Notes under the pieces: model-generated
Database searches by the model: none
Told to the model about the DNA's origin: nothing
Seen by the model: only the letters and a program-made list of their open reading frames with translations
Assembly (NCBI RefSeq): GCF_947077775.1
Contig: NZ_CAMTTE010000001.1
Span: forward strand, 1,302,001-1,366,000
Direction of reading: 5' to 3'
Source of the DNA: Salinibacter pepae
GTDB lineage: Bacteria > Bacteroidota > Rhodothermia > Rhodothermales > Salinibacteraceae
DNA: 64,000 nucleotides
Made by a program: the position numbers and the translations under genes
Shown: piece by piece, positions 5,544 through 43,716 of the stretch
Numbering within the stretch: position 1 is the first letter of the stretch
Layout: each line of letters starts with the position of its first letter

Positions 5544-7115
5544 TTACGGGGCGGCGGCCCGCTCGGAGGGCACGAGGACCTCCCCGTCCATGGCGTCGGG
5601 CACGTCTTCGCCGAGCAGCGTTAGGATGGTGGGCGCGACGTCGCCGAGCTTCCCGTCCCGCACCGGCCCCTCGAATCCGTCTTTGAGAATGATGTGGGGC
5701 ACGAGCGCGGTGGTGTGCGCCGTGTGGGGCGACCCGTCCGGGTTCTGTAGCCTGTCGGCGTTGCCGTGGTCCGCGATGATGCTCACCGAGTAGCCCTGAT
5801 CGCGGGCGGCCTCCACCACCTGCCGGGCGCCGCGGTCCACGGCCTCGCAGGCCGCCACGGCCGCCTCGAAGTCCCCGGTGTGGCCCACCATGTCGGGATT
5901 GGCAAAGTTCAGGACGGCGAGGGTGTAGTCCGCCTCGCTGAGGGACTGCGAGACGCGATCGGCCAGCTCCGGCGCGCTCATTTCGGGCTGTTGGTCGTAG
6001 GTGTCCACCTTCGGCGACGACACGAGGACACGGTCCTCTCCCTCAAACGGCTCCTCGCGCCCGCCGCTGAAGAAGTACGTGACGTGGGCGTACTTCTCGG
6101 TCTCGGCGGCCCGGAGCTGCCGCCCGCCCCGCGCACTGAGGACCTCACCGAGCGTCCCCTCCAGGTTGAGCTTCTCGAAGGCCACCGGCAGGTCGAACGC
6201 GTCGTCGTAGGGCGACATCGTCACGAACAGGAGATCGTCGGGGCGCTCGCGCTTGAAGCCGTCAAAGTCGGCCCCGGTGAAGGCCCGCGTGAGCTGCCGG
6301 GCGCGGTCCGAGCGGAAGTTGTAGTAGACCACCGCGTCGCCGTCCTCGATGCGGGTGCCGTGGTCCCCGAACGCGTCCTCGTCGTCGGCCCGAATGCGAC
6401 GGGGCTCCACAAACTCGTCGGTCACCGCGTCGTCGTAGCTCGCCGTCAGGGCCGCGACGGGGTCGTCGAAGGCCGCCCCCGTTCCGTCCGTGAGAAGCCG
6501 GTAGGCCCGCTCGGTGCGGGCCCACCGCTCGTCGCGGTCCATTGCGTAGTAGCGCCCCACGATGGAGGCGAGGCGCCCCACCCCGATCTCGTCGGCCTTC
6601 TTCTGGAACTGCTCCACGTAGTCGACGCCGCCGTGCGGATCGGTGTCGCGCCCGTCGGTAAACGCGTGCACGTTCACCTGCGCCGGGGCGAGCCCTTCGC
6701 GCCGGGCCAGCTCCAGCAGCCCGTACAGGTGCTGGAGGTGGCTGTGCACCCCCCCGTCGGAGAAGCAGCCCATCAGGTGGAGCTTCTGGTCGTTGGCCTT
6801 CGCGTGCCGGGCGGCCCGGACCAGCGCGTCGTTCTCAAAGAAGGACCCGTCCTCAATGGCCTTCGAGATGCGCAAGATCTCCTGGTACACGACCCGTCCC
6901 GCCCCCAGATTGGTGTGCCCAACCTCCGAGTTGCCCATCTGCCCGTCGGGCAGTCCCACCTCCAGCCCGGACGCCTTCAGGACGCCATGGGGGTATTCGT
7001 CGTAGAGGCGATCCACGAAGGGCGTATCCGCCTGCTCGACGGCACTGACCGAGGGGTCGTCGGCCAGGCCCCAGCCGTCGAGAATGAGGAGGAGGTGGCG
7101 TTTCGAGCTGTCCAT
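5544..7115 (-). CDS. gpmI: 2,3-bisphosphoglycerate-independent phosphoglycerate mutase
   Basis: Glycolytic/gluconeogenic enzyme interconverting 3- and 2-phosphoglycerate through a phosphoserine intermediate with two Mn ions; alkaline-phosphatase superfamily. The metal-binding start HLLLILDGWG and the catalytic serine Ser63 in GQMGNSEVGHTNLG are present, as are the DGRDTDPHGG loop, the IVGRYYAMDRDERW segment, and the second metal cluster NFANPDMVGHTG...ADHGNAD. 523 residues when started at the ATG at 7115 (an in-frame ATG at 7145 would add ten residues); the family is about 510. An acidic, halophile-type sequence. It follows nth on the same strand. Confidence 0.96.
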   Translation of the reverse strand: MDSSKRHLLLILDGWGLADDPSVSAVEQADTPFVDRLYDEYPHGVLKASGLEVGLPDGQMGNSEVGHTNLGAGRVVYQEILRISKAIEDGSFFENDALVRAARHAKANDQKLHLMGCFSDGGVHSHLQHLYGLLELARREGLAPAQVNVHAFTDGRDTDPHGGVDYVEQFQKKADEIGVGRLASIVGRYYAMDRDERWARTERAYRLLTDGTGAAFDDPVAALTASYDDAVTDEFVEPRRIRADDEDAFGDHGTRIEDGDAVVYYNFRSDRARQLTRAFTGADFDGFKRERPDDLLFVTMSPYDDAFDLPVAFEKLNLEGTLGEVLSARGGRQLRAAETEKYAHVTYFFSGGREEPFEGEDRVLVSSPKVDTYDQQPEMSAPELADRVSQSLSEADYTLAVLNFANPDMVGHTGDFEAAVAACEAVDRGARQVVEAARDQGYSVSIIADHGNADRLQNPDGSPHTAHTTALVPHIILKDGFEGPVRDGKLGDVAPTILTLLGEDVPDAMDGEVLVPSERAAAP

Positions 7116-7224
7116 CGAAAGGGGTGTTGACGGGTCGGGTGTCATTGCGAAATGTCGGGCGGGGAAATGAGCGTTTGCTCGCGTTCGGACTCGGGCCCTA
7201 TGCCGGTCTGCTCCTCAACGGCCA

Positions 7225-8073
7225 TCACCCATTTACCCGATAGTCCTTGACCTGCTTGGTCGGCTCGCCCGTCGAGGTGCGGACGACCTGCATAGAGCCG
7301 CAGCGGGGGCACGCGACCTGTTCGAGGTCGTAGCGGTCCACGTGCGTCTCGGGGGCGTCGAAGTAGTGGTCGCTGGTGGTGCAGTAGTAGGTCCCCGCCG
7401 ACGGATCCAGCCCGTCGATGGGGTCCGGCAGGCGCTGGAGACGATCGTAGTGTTTGCACGCCTCGTGGATCGGACAGTCGTGGCAGTCCGGCGAGCGGGC
7501 CGTGCAGGTGTACCGGCCGTGCAGGATGAGCAGATGGTGCGCTTCGCCCCAGTCTTCTTTCGGAATGACGCGCTTGAGCTGTTGCTCCACCTTTTTGGGC
7601 GTCGTGGCGTCCTCCTTGACGAGGCCGATCCGGTTGGCAACGCGGAAGACGTGGGTGTCCACCGGCAGCGCGTCGGCGTCGTGGGCCACCTGCGCCACGA
7701 CACGGGCCGTCTTGCGGCCCACGCCCGTCAGGGTCTCCAGGTCGTCGATGGTCTCGGGCACCTGCCCGTCGAAATTGTCGACGACCTGCCGGGCCATCCG
7801 GGCCAGGTAGCCGGCCTTGTTGTTGGGGAAGGTGATGGACTGGATGTAGGGGTGGATGTCGTCGGGCGTGGCCTCCGCGAGGGCCTCTACCGTCGGGTAC
7901 GCGTCGAAGAGGTCCGGGGTGGCCTTGTTGACGCGCTCGTCGGTGCACTGGGCTGACAGGATGACCGCGACGAGAAGCTGGTATGGGGTGTCGTACTGAA
8001 GTTCGGTCGTCGGGCGGTCGATGCGCTCGCGGAGCGCCTCGAGAACAACGTCGGCACGGTCGGATCGTCCCAC
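7225..8073 (-). CDS. nth: Endonuclease III with a C-terminal extension
   Basis: Base-excision-repair DNA glycosylase/AP lyase acting on oxidised pyrimidines. The helix-hairpin-helix with catalytic Lys121 (GVGRKTARVV), catalytic Asp139 (PVDTHVFRVANRIG) and the 4Fe-4S cluster cysteines C190-X6-C197-X2-C200-X5-C206 are all intact. The start is taken as the GTG at 8071-8073, giving 282 residues; upstream ATG options would overlap the divergent membrane-protein gene. Most endonuclease III proteins end soon after the iron-sulphur loop, near 210-230 residues; here about 70 further residues follow, with C231 and a CPRC pair (255-258) that look like a small metal-binding module. Confidence 0.92.
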   Translation of the reverse strand: MGRSDRADVVLEALRERIDRPTTELQYDTPYQLLVAVILSAQCTDERVNKATPDLFDAYPTVEALAEATPDDIHPYIQSITFPNNKAGYLARMARQVVDNFDGQVPETIDDLETLTGVGRKTARVVAQVAHDADALPVDTHVFRVANRIGLVKEDATTPKKVEQQLKRVIPKEDWGEAHHLLILHGRYTCTARSPDCHDCPIHEACKHYDRLQRLPDPIDGLDPSAGTYYCTTSDHYFDAPETHVDRYDLEQVACPRCGSMQVVRTSTGEPTKQVKDYRVNG

Positions 8074-38247: not shown

Positions 38248-41200
38248 CTACCACCCAGGCCGCAGGATGACCCCGAAGTCCCAGTTTTTGGTGCGCTGGA
38301 ACGTGCGGGCGTAAAACGCCTCCATGACGATTGCGCCCAGGACGTTCACGCGCGCCGACAGGCCGGCGCTCGTCACCGGCTGCGCGGCCACGGTGCGCTC
38401 CGTACTGCCGGTGCCCAGGCGCCCGGTTGCGCCGGTCCCAATCGTGCTCGAGGAGAAGGACAGGTCCGTCAGGTCCTCGTTGGTCCACGTCACCCCGGCA
38501 TCGGCGAAGGCCACCAGGTCGGTCGGCAGGTACTCGAAGGTCGCGAGGCTCAGCACCTCCGGCCCGAGGAGCGGGAGGCGCAGCTCGACGCTCCCGAGCG
38601 CCATGCGCGTGCCGTACAATCGCCCAACTCTGCAGGATTCGAGATTGGCTCGACAATTCGGCTCCTCAAAAAGCGAATTGAAGCTGTACCCCCGCACAAA
38701 GCCCGCCTGGTAGGGATTCCCGAGCGTTTCGCGGACGAAGTTGTCCGTTAGCTGGCCGTCAAACTCGCCCGCCCCGTAGTTCCCGCGGTGGAGGCCCCGC
38801 ACCGCAAGCGTGACGGGCTCGCGGTAGAAGTACCGCCGGTAGTCGGCCAGCACCGACACGAAGTTCCGGGACCCAAACTGCGGCGTCACCTGGAAGCGGT
38901 AGCGCCCGCCCTGCAGGGGCGAGGTCAAGCCCGACCGCGAGAAGTCCCCGACGTACGCGAGGCTCGTGCGCGCGAAGTAGATGGGATCGCGCACTGTCCC
39001 GGCGTCAATCTCTTGGGACTGCCCGAACCGGTTGAACGCGCGGACGGTCTGGCTGAATCCGTAGCGCGTGCCCCCTACGCCAAGTTCGAGTCGGTTCGTC
39101 TGGGAGAAGGGATAGCTCGTCTGCGCGCCCACCTGCGTCCGGAAGATCCGATTGACGATTTGCACGAATCGTCCATCTCTCGTCCGTCCCACTCGCCCGT
39201 AGGCCGACGGCTGGTGCGAGATGCCGACCCCGTAGTTGAATCGGTTCTCCTGATTGGAGTAGAAGACGCCCCCGCCGATGTCCTTGATCGTTCCGTTGGC
39301 CTGTACGAAGACGCTCAGGTTCCGATGGCCGAGAATGTCACTGAACATGAACCCGACCCCCCCCGCCACCTGCGTGCCCACCGGTCCTCCCACCGAGGCC
39401 CCCACCGAAGGGGGCACGATGCGGTCGAGGCGCAGCCGATTGCTGGCCTTCGTCGTCTGGGATGAGTCCACGTCCGTTAGCCCCGTCGTCGGATCCTCCA
39501 GGTAACTGCCCACGAGGCCGTCCCCCTTCGGCTGCACCGGGGGAAGCAACGCGGCGGTGTTGGGGGCCTCCGCCCTCGGCGTCATCCGCTCCCCCTTCGT
39601 TTCCTCCGGCGAGAGCCCCACGATGGAGTACCCGCCGTTCGAGAAGACCGAGAACATCATCCGCCCGCTCCGCCGCGCCACCGACAGGGCCGGAGAGAGG
39701 GCCGTAATGCCACTCACGCCGGTCTTCAGCTCCGTCACGCGGTAGGTCGCCTCCTCGTCCAGGTCGTAGCGGTACACGTCCTTGAAGCCGTCCTGATCGG
39801 CAACGAAGTAGATGCTGCGGCCGTCCGGACTGAACTGTGGGTTGTGCTGCATGCCCGTGGAGAAGGGCCGGATCGTGCGAATCTCGCCGGACGCGACGTC
39901 GATCAGGCCGATGCGCTCCTCGCCGTACTCCAGCGTCTCAAAGTTTGTCCCGTCCCGCCCGCGGTCCGTCGTAAACGCGAGGGTTTCCCCGTCGGGCGAC
40001 CACGTCGGCTGCAGGGCCGCATACCGGTCGTTGGTGAGCTGGCGCACGCTCTTCTGGTCCAGGTCGTAGACGTACAGGTCGCTCAGGCCGCCCTCCAGCC
40101 CCGAAAACGCAATGGACTGCCCGTCCGGCGACCAGGCCAGGTTGTGAATGGCCCCCACGTTCTCCACCGCCGTCCGCGTCCGGATCTCGCCCGTCTGGAC
40201 GTTGAACGTGTTGATTTCGTTGCGGCCGTCCGCGAACGTGATGAACGCAAACCGCCGCCCGTCCGGCGACCACGCCCCCGCCGAGTTGATAAACCGGAGC
40301 GCGTCGAAGTGCGGGTTTGAGCGGGTTCCCTCCAGTTCCTGGACGATCTCGCCCGTCTCCGCGTCCGCGACGAAGAGGTTCGTGTTGAAGAGGTTGCGGC
40401 GCGAGATAAAGGCCACGTAGCGCCCGTCCGGGCTCACCGCCGGGGAGATGTTGAGCTGGTTGTCGCCCCCGGGGTCCCCAATCACCGCCGTGCCCACCGA
40501 GTCCACCGGCGTCCGCCCCTCGGTGGCCGGCAGGAGGGCATCGCGGGTGGACTGCTTCCACTCCTCCGACAGCGAATCGGCCGTGATGCCGAGCGTGTAC
40601 ACGAAGGCGGAGTCAAGCCCCACCCGCCCACTCATTTTGTAAAGGTCCGTGACGGTGGCGTCGCCGTACTTGCCGCCGATGTAGGCCATGTAGGCCTGGC
40701 CGTAGCGGTAGGGAAAGTAGGACTGCTGGTCGCGCGTGAGCTGCCGAATTGTGGGCAGGTCCCCGCGCACGGCCGCGTCCCGCATCCACATCGCGGTGTG
40801 GGAGTCCTTCCGCCCGATCGACAGGTATTCGGCCATTCCTTCAATGAACCACAGCGGCATGTTGCGCAGCGAGAACCCCTCGTTGTTCTTGCGCAGGGCA
40901 ATGTCGTACTGAAACGAGTGAACCAGCTCGTGGCCGAGCACATGGTCGGTCTCCCCGTAGCTTCCCGTAAGCGGCATGATGACGCGCTCCTTGATGCTCT
41001 CCGTCACGCCGCCGGTGCCCTGTCCCAGCTGCCCACGCACGGCGTTGGTCTGCTGAAAATCGGGGCTGTTGGCGTAAAAGATCAGCGGCTTCCTCTTCTG
41101 AAACTCTCGGAGGAAGGTCCGGGAGTGGCGATCGTACCACCGCTCCGCCATCCGGGCCGCGTCCTCAACGGCCTGCTGCTCCTCCGGGTAGAAGTAAATC

Positions 41201-41358
41201 TCAAACTGATCCGTCTCGAAGGAGCGAAAGTCAAACTGTTCGTACTGGACCTTATTCTGCCCAAAGTACTGGGCCGACGCCGGTCCGACGGCCCCAATCA
41301 TCGAGGCGACCGAAAGCGCAAGGAGAGCGAGAGCAAAACGCACAGGAGATCGTTGCAT
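38248..41358 (-). CDS. Secreted protein: HExxH peptidase domain, PD40 propeller, outer-membrane beta-barrel
   Basis: 1036 residues, start chosen at the ATG at 41358 to give a good signal peptide ending near PASAQYFG (in-frame ATGs at 41373-41376 are alternatives). Three parts: a gluzincin-like peptidase domain with GHELVHSF (His143, Glu144, His147) and the downstream acid in WFIEGMAEYLS (Glu178); five or six WD40-like TolB/PD40 blades (ISPAVSPDGRYVAFISRR, AWSPDGRRFAF, LAWSPDGQSIAF, TWSPDGETLAFTTDRG, QFSPDGRSIYF) from about 300 to 560; and a C-terminal region of about 400 residues with alternating aromatic strands ending in FGVILRPGW, the terminal aromatic signature of outer-membrane barrels (surface-antigen/BamA-like). 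Probably exported to and anchored in the outer membrane. Convergent with phzF-like. Confidence 0.82.
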   Translation of the reverse strand: MQRSPVRFALALLALSVASMIGAVGPASAQYFGQNKVQYEQFDFRSFETDQFEIYFYPEEQQAVEDAARMAERWYDRHSRTFLREFQKRKPLIFYANSPDFQQTNAVRGQLGQGTGGVTESIKERVIMPLTGSYGETDHVLGHELVHSFQYDIALRKNNEGFSLRNMPLWFIEGMAEYLSIGRKDSHTAMWMRDAAVRGDLPTIRQLTRDQQSYFPYRYGQAYMAYIGGKYGDATVTDLYKMSGRVGLDSAFVYTLGITADSLSEEWKQSTRDALLPATEGRTPVDSVGTAVIGDPGGDNQLNISPAVSPDGRYVAFISRRNLFNTNLFVADAETGEIVQELEGTRSNPHFDALRFINSAGAWSPDGRRFAFITFADGRNEINTFNVQTGEIRTRTAVENVGAIHNLAWSPDGQSIAFSGLEGGLSDLYVYDLDQKSVRQLTNDRYAALQPTWSPDGETLAFTTDRGRDGTNFETLEYGEERIGLIDVASGEIRTIRPFSTGMQHNPQFSPDGRSIYFVADQDGFKDVYRYDLDEEATYRVTELKTGVSGITALSPALSVARRSGRMMFSVFSNGGYSIVGLSPEETKGERMTPRAEAPNTAALLPPVQPKGDGLVGSYLEDPTTGLTDVDSSQTTKASNRLRLDRIVPPSVGASVGGPVGTQVAGGVGFMFSDILGHRNLSVFVQANGTIKDIGGGVFYSNQENRFNYGVGISHQPSAYGRVGRTRDGRFVQIVNRIFRTQVGAQTSYPFSQTNRLELGVGGTRYGFSQTVRAFNRFGQSQEIDAGTVRDPIYFARTSLAYVGDFSRSGLTSPLQGGRYRFQVTPQFGSRNFVSVLADYRRYFYREPVTLAVRGLHRGNYGAGEFDGQLTDNFVRETLGNPYQAGFVRGYSFNSLFEEPNCRANLESCRVGRLYGTRMALGSVELRLPLLGPEVLSLATFEYLPTDLVAFADAGVTWTNEDLTDLSFSSSTIGTGATGRLGTGSTERTVAAQPVTSAGLSARVNVLGAIVMEAFYARTFQRTKNWDFGVILRPGW

Positions 41359-41775: not shown

Positions 41776-43716
41776 ATGGATGAGTATCGCACCCGCGTCC
41801 GGATCTACGCCGGGGTCGTCGTCTTTCTCTTTTTCCTGCTCGGCCTTCGTCTGGTGCAGCTCCAGGGCTTCAACGGCGCGTCCGAGGACGGCACGCCGCC
41901 CGGAAGCGCCGTGCGGGAGCAATCGGTAGAGCCGGCACGGGGGGCCCTGTACGCCCGGGACAGCACGCTCCTGGTGGACAACCGGCCCACCTACACGATC
42001 CGGATCACGCCCCGGTACTTTGACGCGTCGAAGGCCCCGCTGCTGGCCAATCTACTGGGCGTGGCCGACTCGACGGTGCGCCGCCGACTGCGAGCGGCGC
42101 GCGAGCGGAATGCCTTCCGCCCGACGCCCTCGTTTCGGGAGGTCTCGTTCGACACGTTCAGTCGCGTGCAGGAGCACCTCTACGAGCTGCCCGGCGTGTC
42201 GTACGACGTGGAGTTGAGGCGGCGCTACCACACGGCCGCCCGGGCGGCACATGCCCTCGGCTACGTTCACGAGATTGACGAGCAGGCCTTGTCCCGCATG
42301 CCGGCGGCCTACCGGGCCGGCGACCGCATCGGCCGCACGGGCCTGGAGCACGCCTACGAATCAATCCTTCGGGGCGACCGGGGGCGCGAGATGGTGCTCG
42401 TGAACGTGCACGGGACGGAGGTGCGGGAGTACCAGAACGGCGCCATGGACATCCCTCCGGTCGGCGGGCACGATCTCCACCTCACCCTCGACCACGAGGT
42501 GCAGGCCCTCGCCGAGTCCCTCTTCGTGGGGAAGCGCGGCGCGGCCGTTGCCCTCGACCCCGACACCGGCGGCATCCTTTCCCTCGTCAGCACGCCGGAC
42601 TTCGCCCCCTCCCTGTTTGCCCGGTCGGTCAGCACATCGGCGTGGGACAGCCTCCGCTCGGCCCCGAGCGATCCGCTCTACAACCGCGCCACGCAGAGCG
42701 GCTACCCCCCAGGCTCCACCTGGAAGCCGTTCATGTCCCTCGTCGCCCTCGAAACCGGAATGCTCACTGCCTCGGAGCGCATGGATTGCCCGCCAAGCTA
42801 CCAGATCGGGCGCCGGGCCTTCAAAAATCACGACGGGCAGGACGAGGGTCGCATCACGGTGGCAAAGGCCCTGGAGGTGTCGTGCAATACCTTCTTCTAC
42901 CAGGTGATGGACAACATGACCCTGGCCACCTGGCGCAACTGGGCCCTGGAATTCGGGTTCGGCCAGGAGGTGCCGCTCGAAGGATTTCGGCAGGAGCCGG
43001 GGTTGATTCCCGATTCCTCCTACTTCGACCGGATGTACGGCCGCTGGACGGACGGCTACACCATCAACCTCGGCATCGGACAGGGCGACATGTCCGTCAC
43101 CCCCCTCCAGATGGCCCGGTACGCAGCGGCCCTCGGCAACGGCGGCCGCCTCCCCACGCCCCACCTCGTCCGCAAGGCCGTCCACCCCGAGACGGGGGCG
43201 GCCCGGCGTCCCGAACTGCCTCCCCCGGACCCAATTCCGGTCGACCCCTCTCACTTCGACGTCGTGCAGGAGGGCATGCACCGCGTCATGACCGACGGCA
43301 CCGGCCGGTGGGTCCAGATCCCCGACATCCCCAGCGCCGGCAAGACGGGCACGGCCCAGAACCCGCACGGCGAAGACCACTCGCTGTTCATCATGTTTGC
43401 GCCGTACGACGACCCCGAGATCGCCCTCGCGGTAGTCGTCGAGAATGCGGGCTACGGGGCCACCGCCGCGGCCCCCATTGCGAGCCTGATGGCCGAACAA
43501 TACCTGACGGGCTCAATCGCGGACACGTGGGAGCGGCGCTACTGGAAGCGACGCCTGCGGGAGGAGGTGCGCAGCGCCCCGGAGGACGGCGCGCCCTCCC
43601 CCTCCACGTCTCCTCCGGAGACAACGCCCGCCGTCCAGGCCACCACGCAACCCGCCGCCCCGACGCCCGCTGACTCGTCCCGCCCCAACGCCCCATCGCC
43701 GACCGATCGCCCATGA
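41776..43716 (+). CDS. mrdA: Penicillin-binding protein 2 (cell-elongation transpeptidase)
   Basis: Class B PBP that cross-links peptidoglycan in the rod complex with RodA. 646 residues starting MDEYRTRVRIYAGVVVFLFF at 41776 (membrane anchor, residues 10-30). After the dimerisation domain come the transpeptidase motifs: SxxK at Ser314-Lys317 (PPGSTWKPF), SxN in EVSCNTFFYQ, and KTG at 523-525 (SAGKTGTAQNP). The C-terminal 50 residues are a Pro/Thr/Ser-rich tail. The longer frame from 41629 was not used. The TGA stop overlaps the ATG of rodA (ATGA), showing translational coupling. mreB/mreC/mreD are not adjacent. Confidence 0.95.
   Translation: MDEYRTRVRIYAGVVVFLFFLLGLRLVQLQGFNGASEDGTPPGSAVREQSVEPARGALYARDSTLLVDNRPTYTIRITPRYFDASKAPLLANLLGVADSTVRRRLRAARERNAFRPTPSFREVSFDTFSRVQEHLYELPGVSYDVELRRRYHTAARAAHALGYVHEIDEQALSRMPAAYRAGDRIGRTGLEHAYESILRGDRGREMVLVNVHGTEVREYQNGAMDIPPVGGHDLHLTLDHEVQALAESLFVGKRGAAVALDPDTGGILSLVSTPDFAPSLFARSVSTSAWDSLRSAPSDPLYNRATQSGYPPGSTWKPFMSLVALETGMLTASERMDCPPSYQIGRRAFKNHDGQDEGRITVAKALEVSCNTFFYQVMDNMTLATWRNWALEFGFGQEVPLEGFRQEPGLIPDSSYFDRMYGRWTDGYTINLGIGQGDMSVTPLQMARYAAALGNGGRLPTPHLVRKAVHPETGAARRPELPPPDPIPVDPSHFDVVQEGMHRVMTDGTGRWVQIPDIPSAGKTGTAQNPHGEDHSLFIMFAPYDDPEIALAVVVENAGYGATAAAPIASLMAEQYLTGSIADTWERRYWKRRLREEVRSAPEDGAPSPSTSPPETTPAVQATTQPAAPTPADSSRPNAPSPTDRP

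Follow-up and report, generated by a model that had tools for sequence, protein, structure and literature searches.

Omp85 proteins build the outer membrane, and those among them that bear an enzyme are, to our knowledge, almost unstudied. In the main text of Heinz & Lithgow 2014 (PMC4104836), WD40-Omp85 is one of ten Omp85 subfamilies and is compared with a BamA-BamB fusion; a 2024 paper still gives this subfamily as not well characterised. The word "peptidase" does not occur in the main text of PMC4104836 on WD40-Omp85, and WD40 proteins are likewise not mentioned in two papers, one on TAM evolution and one on TamL. The N-terminal domains of Omp85 barrels reside in the periplasm. In PlpD, the one enzyme-Omp85 fusion that has been studied, the enzyme domain stays there too (PMC11116518), which demonstrates that enzyme-bearing Omp85 proteins can be periplasmic enzymes. 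In E. coli, the zinc metallopeptidase BepA (M48) of the periplasm works at BAM in the assembly of outer-membrane proteins (PMC8423444). The literature searched contained neither a functional study of a peptidase-propeller-Omp85 architecture nor a characterised Peptidase MA member with both a propeller and an outer-membrane barrel.

Such an architecture is encoded in the window analysed here, a stretch of 64,000 nucleotides of Salinibacter pepae (contig 1, positions 1302001-1366000; the assembly totals 3.63 Mb). The open reading frame lies on the minus strand, with the ATG at 41358 and the stop codon at 38248-38250, exactly where the initial annotation had placed it; the plus-strand reading of the same interval contains four stops, which assigns the gene to the minus strand. 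The features of the gene, its divergent neighbour and a barrel-less paralogue are as follows:

38248..41358, minus strand: whole gene, metallopeptidase - PD40 propeller - Omp85-type barrel, 1036 amino acids
41272..41358, minus strand: predicted signal peptide, residues 1-29, read from the sequence, with cleavage between ASA and Q proposed by eye
40489..41271, minus strand: gluzincin-like peptidase domain, residues 30-290 (Pfam matches in relatives; AF2)
40918..40932, minus strand: HELVH, predicted zinc-binding motif, residues 143-147 (invariant in 87/87 homologues)
40828..40842, minus strand: EGMAE, residues 173-177 (Glu173 the proposed third zinc ligand, Glu177 near-invariant)
39559..40476, minus strand: TolB-like PD40 propeller, residues 295-600, about six blades (PF07676, 3.2e-32; TolB matches)
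38251..39441, minus strand: Omp85-type beta-barrel, residues 640-1036, about 16 predicted strands (AF2; Omp85 Pfam matches in relatives)
38686..38697, minus strand: VRGY, residues 888-891, Omp85 loop-6 type VRG(F/Y) motif, read from the sequence
38251..38253, minus strand: C-terminal aromatic Trp1036 (W or F ends almost all full-length homologues)
41776..43716, plus strand: penicillin-binding protein 2-like gene (mrdA), divergent neighbour (Pfam Transpeptidase 9.5e-64, PBP_dimer 1.8e-40)
5995-7896 of the extracted locus, S. ruber M1 plasmid pSR116: barrel-less paralogue

The N-terminus reads by eye as a signal peptide (MQRSPVRFALALLALSVASMIGAVGPASA, followed by Q), with no lipobox seen in the same reading, and the AF2 model has a helix at residues 4-22 followed by a low-confidence stretch. 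The S. altiplanensis homologue is about 90% identical across the full protein. Full-length homologues of like architecture occur in several phyla and the four active-site residues never vary, so that the single frame with three parts is real and a chance fusion or frame artefact is rejected. Profile and structure evidence backs the division into peptidase, propeller and barrel; the domain architecture is thus well supported, while the function is not settled.

The family search covered 297 genomes of the phylum and gave a match in 281, many of which are propeller-only matches (E above 1e-30) and not family members. Full-length or near-full-length matches split into two groups. Members of group I share approximately 35-98% identity with the window protein; those of group II share approximately 26-28% over the full length, with 31-36% in the best-matching N-terminal segment, and fall in a clade of their own (support 0.997) that also holds two leaves lacking the group II motif. 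Records named Gemmatimonadaceae, Acidobacteria and Aminicenantes, which are metagenome bins with provisional names, supplied further group I members. Judged by sequence, the family is thus widespread across the Bacteroidota/Rhodothermota group and extends to bins assigned to Gemmatimonadota, Acidobacteria and Aminicenantes. Besides the window gene, the Salinibacter genome itself has a paralogue with 53% identity and a distant relative, the latter (contig 1:2447716-2450955) having HELTH, PD40 repeats and a weak Omp85 match.

The peptidase had been proposed from HELVH and a downstream Glu178. The motif is present at residues 143-147, but residue 178 is a tyrosine, and Glu173 takes its place as the candidate ligand. 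His143, Glu144, His147, Glu173 and Gly174 are unvarying in all 87 distinct homologues, and Glu177 is retained in 86 of them. Glu173 sits within P-L-W-x-x-E-G. When the domain is aligned by profile with human glutamyl aminopeptidase (PDB 4kx7), a match that is weak as a whole (E=0.037), HELVH and the EG motif fall on the zinc site and Glu173 pairs with the zinc-ligand Glu of WLNEG in this M1 enzyme. The arrangement is that of a gluzincin, namely HExxH and a downstream Glu in an EG motif (H143, E144, H147, E173). In Pfam, the window protein yields sub-threshold matches to DUF6055, BSP and Peptidase_M9 across residues 136-263; its PF04450 score is 22.4 against a curated cut-off of 23.8. Among the relatives, BSP was matched by 24 and Peptidase_MA_2 by seven of 25 group I members, and Peptidase_MA_2 by all eight group II members scanned (best 2.5e-15), one of which reached 52 bits against the PF13485 cut-off of 32.4. 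Peptidase-only and barrel-only profiles gave weak matches or none against PDB sequences. In the AF2 model the domain is helical and mostly of high confidence, with helices at 61-82, 134-155 and 169-181, among others.

Within group I, mean identity to the window protein is 59% for the peptidase, 50% for the propeller and 44% for the barrel. The peptidase is the best-conserved part and neither HExxH nor Glu173 varies, so selection very likely acts on catalysis, and the lack of any inactive copy among the 87 homologues indicates that it matters. With the four zinc and catalytic residues kept in 87/87 sequences, the peptidase is very likely active, and an inactive pseudo-peptidase is rejected.

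The TolB-like PD40 propeller of the initial annotation was borne out by the PF07676 match and by TolB chains, which are the best PDB sequence matches of this segment; the best NCBIfam match is also TolB, below the NCBIfam cut-off, and the fold matches of the full AF2 model are TolB and other propellers. For the barrel, PF01103 (Omp85) was not matched by the window protein itself in Pfam and was matched by three of 25 group I members (best 3.2e-11) and three of eight group II members (best 9e-10); profile-profile comparison finds the barrels of the two groups homologous (99.9% probability). In the barrel alignment the G of VRG(F/Y) is invariant and the R nearly so, and both Omp85 features of the window protein, VRGY and Trp1036, are conserved among relatives, in agreement with the terminal aromatic noted at the outset. 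The full AF2 model (25 sequences; mean pLDDT 78.3, pTM 0.74) has about 16 long strands in a run from 643 to 1034. Because the propeller swamped the fold search of the whole model, a barrel-only model was made (pLDDT 69.2, pTM 0.66, about 16 strands), and the 50 PDB matches listed for it are all Omp85 proteins (BamA of several species, Toc75, TamA, Sam50), with E values of 1.9e-8 to 1.1e-6, probability 1.00 and query-length TM scores of 0.34-0.46. Given these TM scores and an rmsd of about 10 Å or more, the barrel model is approximate. The resemblance to TamL is weak. The BamA/surface-antigen-like barrel first proposed is therefore upheld as a predicted Omp85-type barrel of about 16 strands, which these models and profile matches support well. 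Structure prediction, named earlier as a check, was favourable in giving these strands and a helical peptidase fold; a model lacking peptidase active-site geometry or a closed barrel, the result that would speak against the architecture, was not obtained. No POTRA family is among the Pfam matches of the window protein, group I or group II, and the N-terminal part of the window protein is occupied by the peptidase and propeller instead.

Salinibacter is a heterotroph, and a barrel that exported the peptidase and propeller in a "type Vd"-like manner would let the protein digest external protein for nutrition or act on the surface, a possible form of the surface protease suggested in the initial annotation. 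Peptide scavenging of this kind fits the barrel-less form on S. ruber M1 plasmid pSR116, a 633-aa protein with peptidase, propeller and an intact HELVH, annotated in the record as "basic secretory protein-like protein"; a serine carboxypeptidase gene comes next, and a TonB-dependent receptor gene lies a few genes upstream. The gap to the serine carboxypeptidase gene is too short for a barrel, hence this relative is truly barrel-less, which suggests that the peptidase-propeller unit may be functional without a barrel; it could equally be a secreted enzyme with a digestive role, a point that weighs against a periplasmic reading of the family. However, the type Vd model is contradicted for its own prototype, PlpD (PMC11116518), a folded enzyme and propeller of some 570 residues would have to cross the narrow Omp85 barrel, and the forms with a barrel often neighbour envelope-biogenesis genes. 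Because Omp85 topology and PlpD (PMC11116518) both place such domains in the periplasm, a periplasmic orientation is the likelier topology for the window protein, which gives no sign of exposure, and a surface-exposed protease appears unlikely.

The gene neighbourhood offers further evidence. The window gene is divergent from the mrdA-like gene, after which comes a rodA-like gene, and divergence from a PBP2 gene is seen in 12 group I loci, the window included. In eight loci a PBP1A-type gene on the same strand directly precedes the group I gene, at a distance of 44-168 bp. These arrangements could indicate a peptidoglycan-linked regulator, placed in the outer membrane, by which cell-wall enzymes (PBPs) are processed or activated, but the PBP1A cases comprise six genomes of one family and two Solitalea, and the remaining group I loci have no PBP neighbour; we regard this function as highly improbable. 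The adjacency to PBP genes comes from one order, essentially one family, and may therefore be an inherited gene order with no functional meaning.

In 19 of the 27 group II loci, a large TamB/AsmA-like gene, an RNase R gene and the peptidase/PD40/Omp85 gene directly follow one another on the same strand, with distances from RNase R to the last gene of -67 to +214 bp, mostly below about 100 bp, so that the order is an apparent operon. The identity of RNase R is firm in one tested example (RNB 8.2e-115); the gene of an RNA exonuclease here lies between two envelope genes. Eight of the upstream TamB/AsmA-like proteins were scanned: one passes Pfam TamB (PF04357, 7e-23), two have weak DUF748/AsmA matches, and five have no Pfam match; one of the weak AsmA-type proteins matches NCBIfam TamB at 2.8e-14, below its cut-off. 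The remaining upstream genes were called TamB/AsmA-like by sequence clustering. Together with the PBP neighbourhoods, this gene order favours a role in envelope biogenesis, although such links may be inherited gene order.

The second function first proposed, that of an assembly factor, draws most of its strength from this operon of the sister branch. It would make the protein a TamA-like assembly or translocation factor that partners the TamB/AsmA-like bridge, with the peptidase and propeller in place of POTRA domains and proteolysis used for proofreading only. The homology of the two groups' barrels and the closeness of the barrel to BamA, TamA, Toc75 and Sam50 among the 50 matches listed, with TamL a weaker likeness, agree with such a role. 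Yet the window gene, a group I member, lies far from both tamB genes of its own genome, POTRA was not found by Pfam, and the peptidase is better conserved than the barrel. A TamA-like factor is decidedly unlikely. Also rather unlikely is a self-contained biogenesis checkpoint, in which an Omp85 barrel handling nascent outer-membrane proteins would carry its own proofreading protease and propeller, and group II would be a variant of TAM with a TamB-like bridge protein and a built-in protease.

We consider it moderately probable that the window protein is an outer-membrane-anchored, periplasm-facing zinc metallopeptidase in envelope homeostasis or quality control. The signal peptide would direct the chain through Sec, and the barrel would insert in the outer membrane, mainly as an anchor, although nascent outer-membrane proteins might dock on it as well. 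The six-bladed propeller, which would sit in the periplasm between barrel and peptidase, may select or gate substrates. His143, His147 and Glu173 would bind the zinc and Glu144 would be the general base, roles consistent with the invariance of these residues, and the gluzincin-type domain would cleave periplasmic or outer-membrane precursor proteins in envelope quality control or remodelling. All three domains being supported, with an invariant HExxH and Glu173, this function accords with the periplasmic enzyme of PlpD (PMC11116518), with the precedent of BepA, a metallopeptidase working at BAM (PMC8423444), with the barrel-less plasmid form, which keeps an intact motif, and with the PBP2 (12 loci), PBP1A (8 loci) and group II TamB/AsmA-like and RNase R neighbours. 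The sub-threshold Pfam scores of the window protein's own peptidase and the narrow taxonomic range of the PBP adjacency count against it.

PF00149 is, as we take it, the calcineurin-like phosphoesterase domain and not a protease, and for that reason the "metalloprotease" label given to an Omp85 subfamily founded on it seems to be a mistake, repeated in a later paper. That subfamily, separate from WD40-Omp85, rests on PF00149 in the main text of PMC4104836. The naming gap is thus double, since "WD40-Omp85" hides a metallopeptidase and "metalloprotease-Omp85" refers to a presumed phosphoesterase domain.

With a TolB-like propeller directly before an Omp85 barrel, the window protein has the defining arrangement of WD40-Omp85 and, like that subfamily as presented in the main text of PMC4104836, combines an N-terminal propeller with an uncharacterised function and no POTRA; the two match and probably overlap. 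That main text names no peptidase, whereas the window family has a conserved one. PlpD likewise carries its enzyme N-terminal to an Omp85 barrel, but is a phospholipase with one POTRA, whereas the window protein is a metallopeptidase with a propeller and none. BepA (PMC8423444) is a separate soluble protein of another peptidase family, in contrast to a peptidase that is predicted to be covalently anchored. TolB, the closest match to the propeller in sequence as well as in fold, is soluble and has neither peptidase nor barrel, and members of the Peptidase MA clan (BSP, Peptidase_MA_2, M1, M9) share HExxH followed by W-x-x-E-G-x-A. A single chain would thus unite roles that E. coli keeps separate, namely a BamA-type barrel, a BamB/TolB-type propeller and a BepA-type protease. 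What is known is WD40-Omp85; what is new is a conserved metallopeptidase and, in the sister branch, an apparent operon with TamB-like and RNase R genes. With a strictly conserved protease site fused to an Omp85-type barrel, this widespread family is a direct test case for barrel proteins that might bring a protease of their own to envelope quality control.
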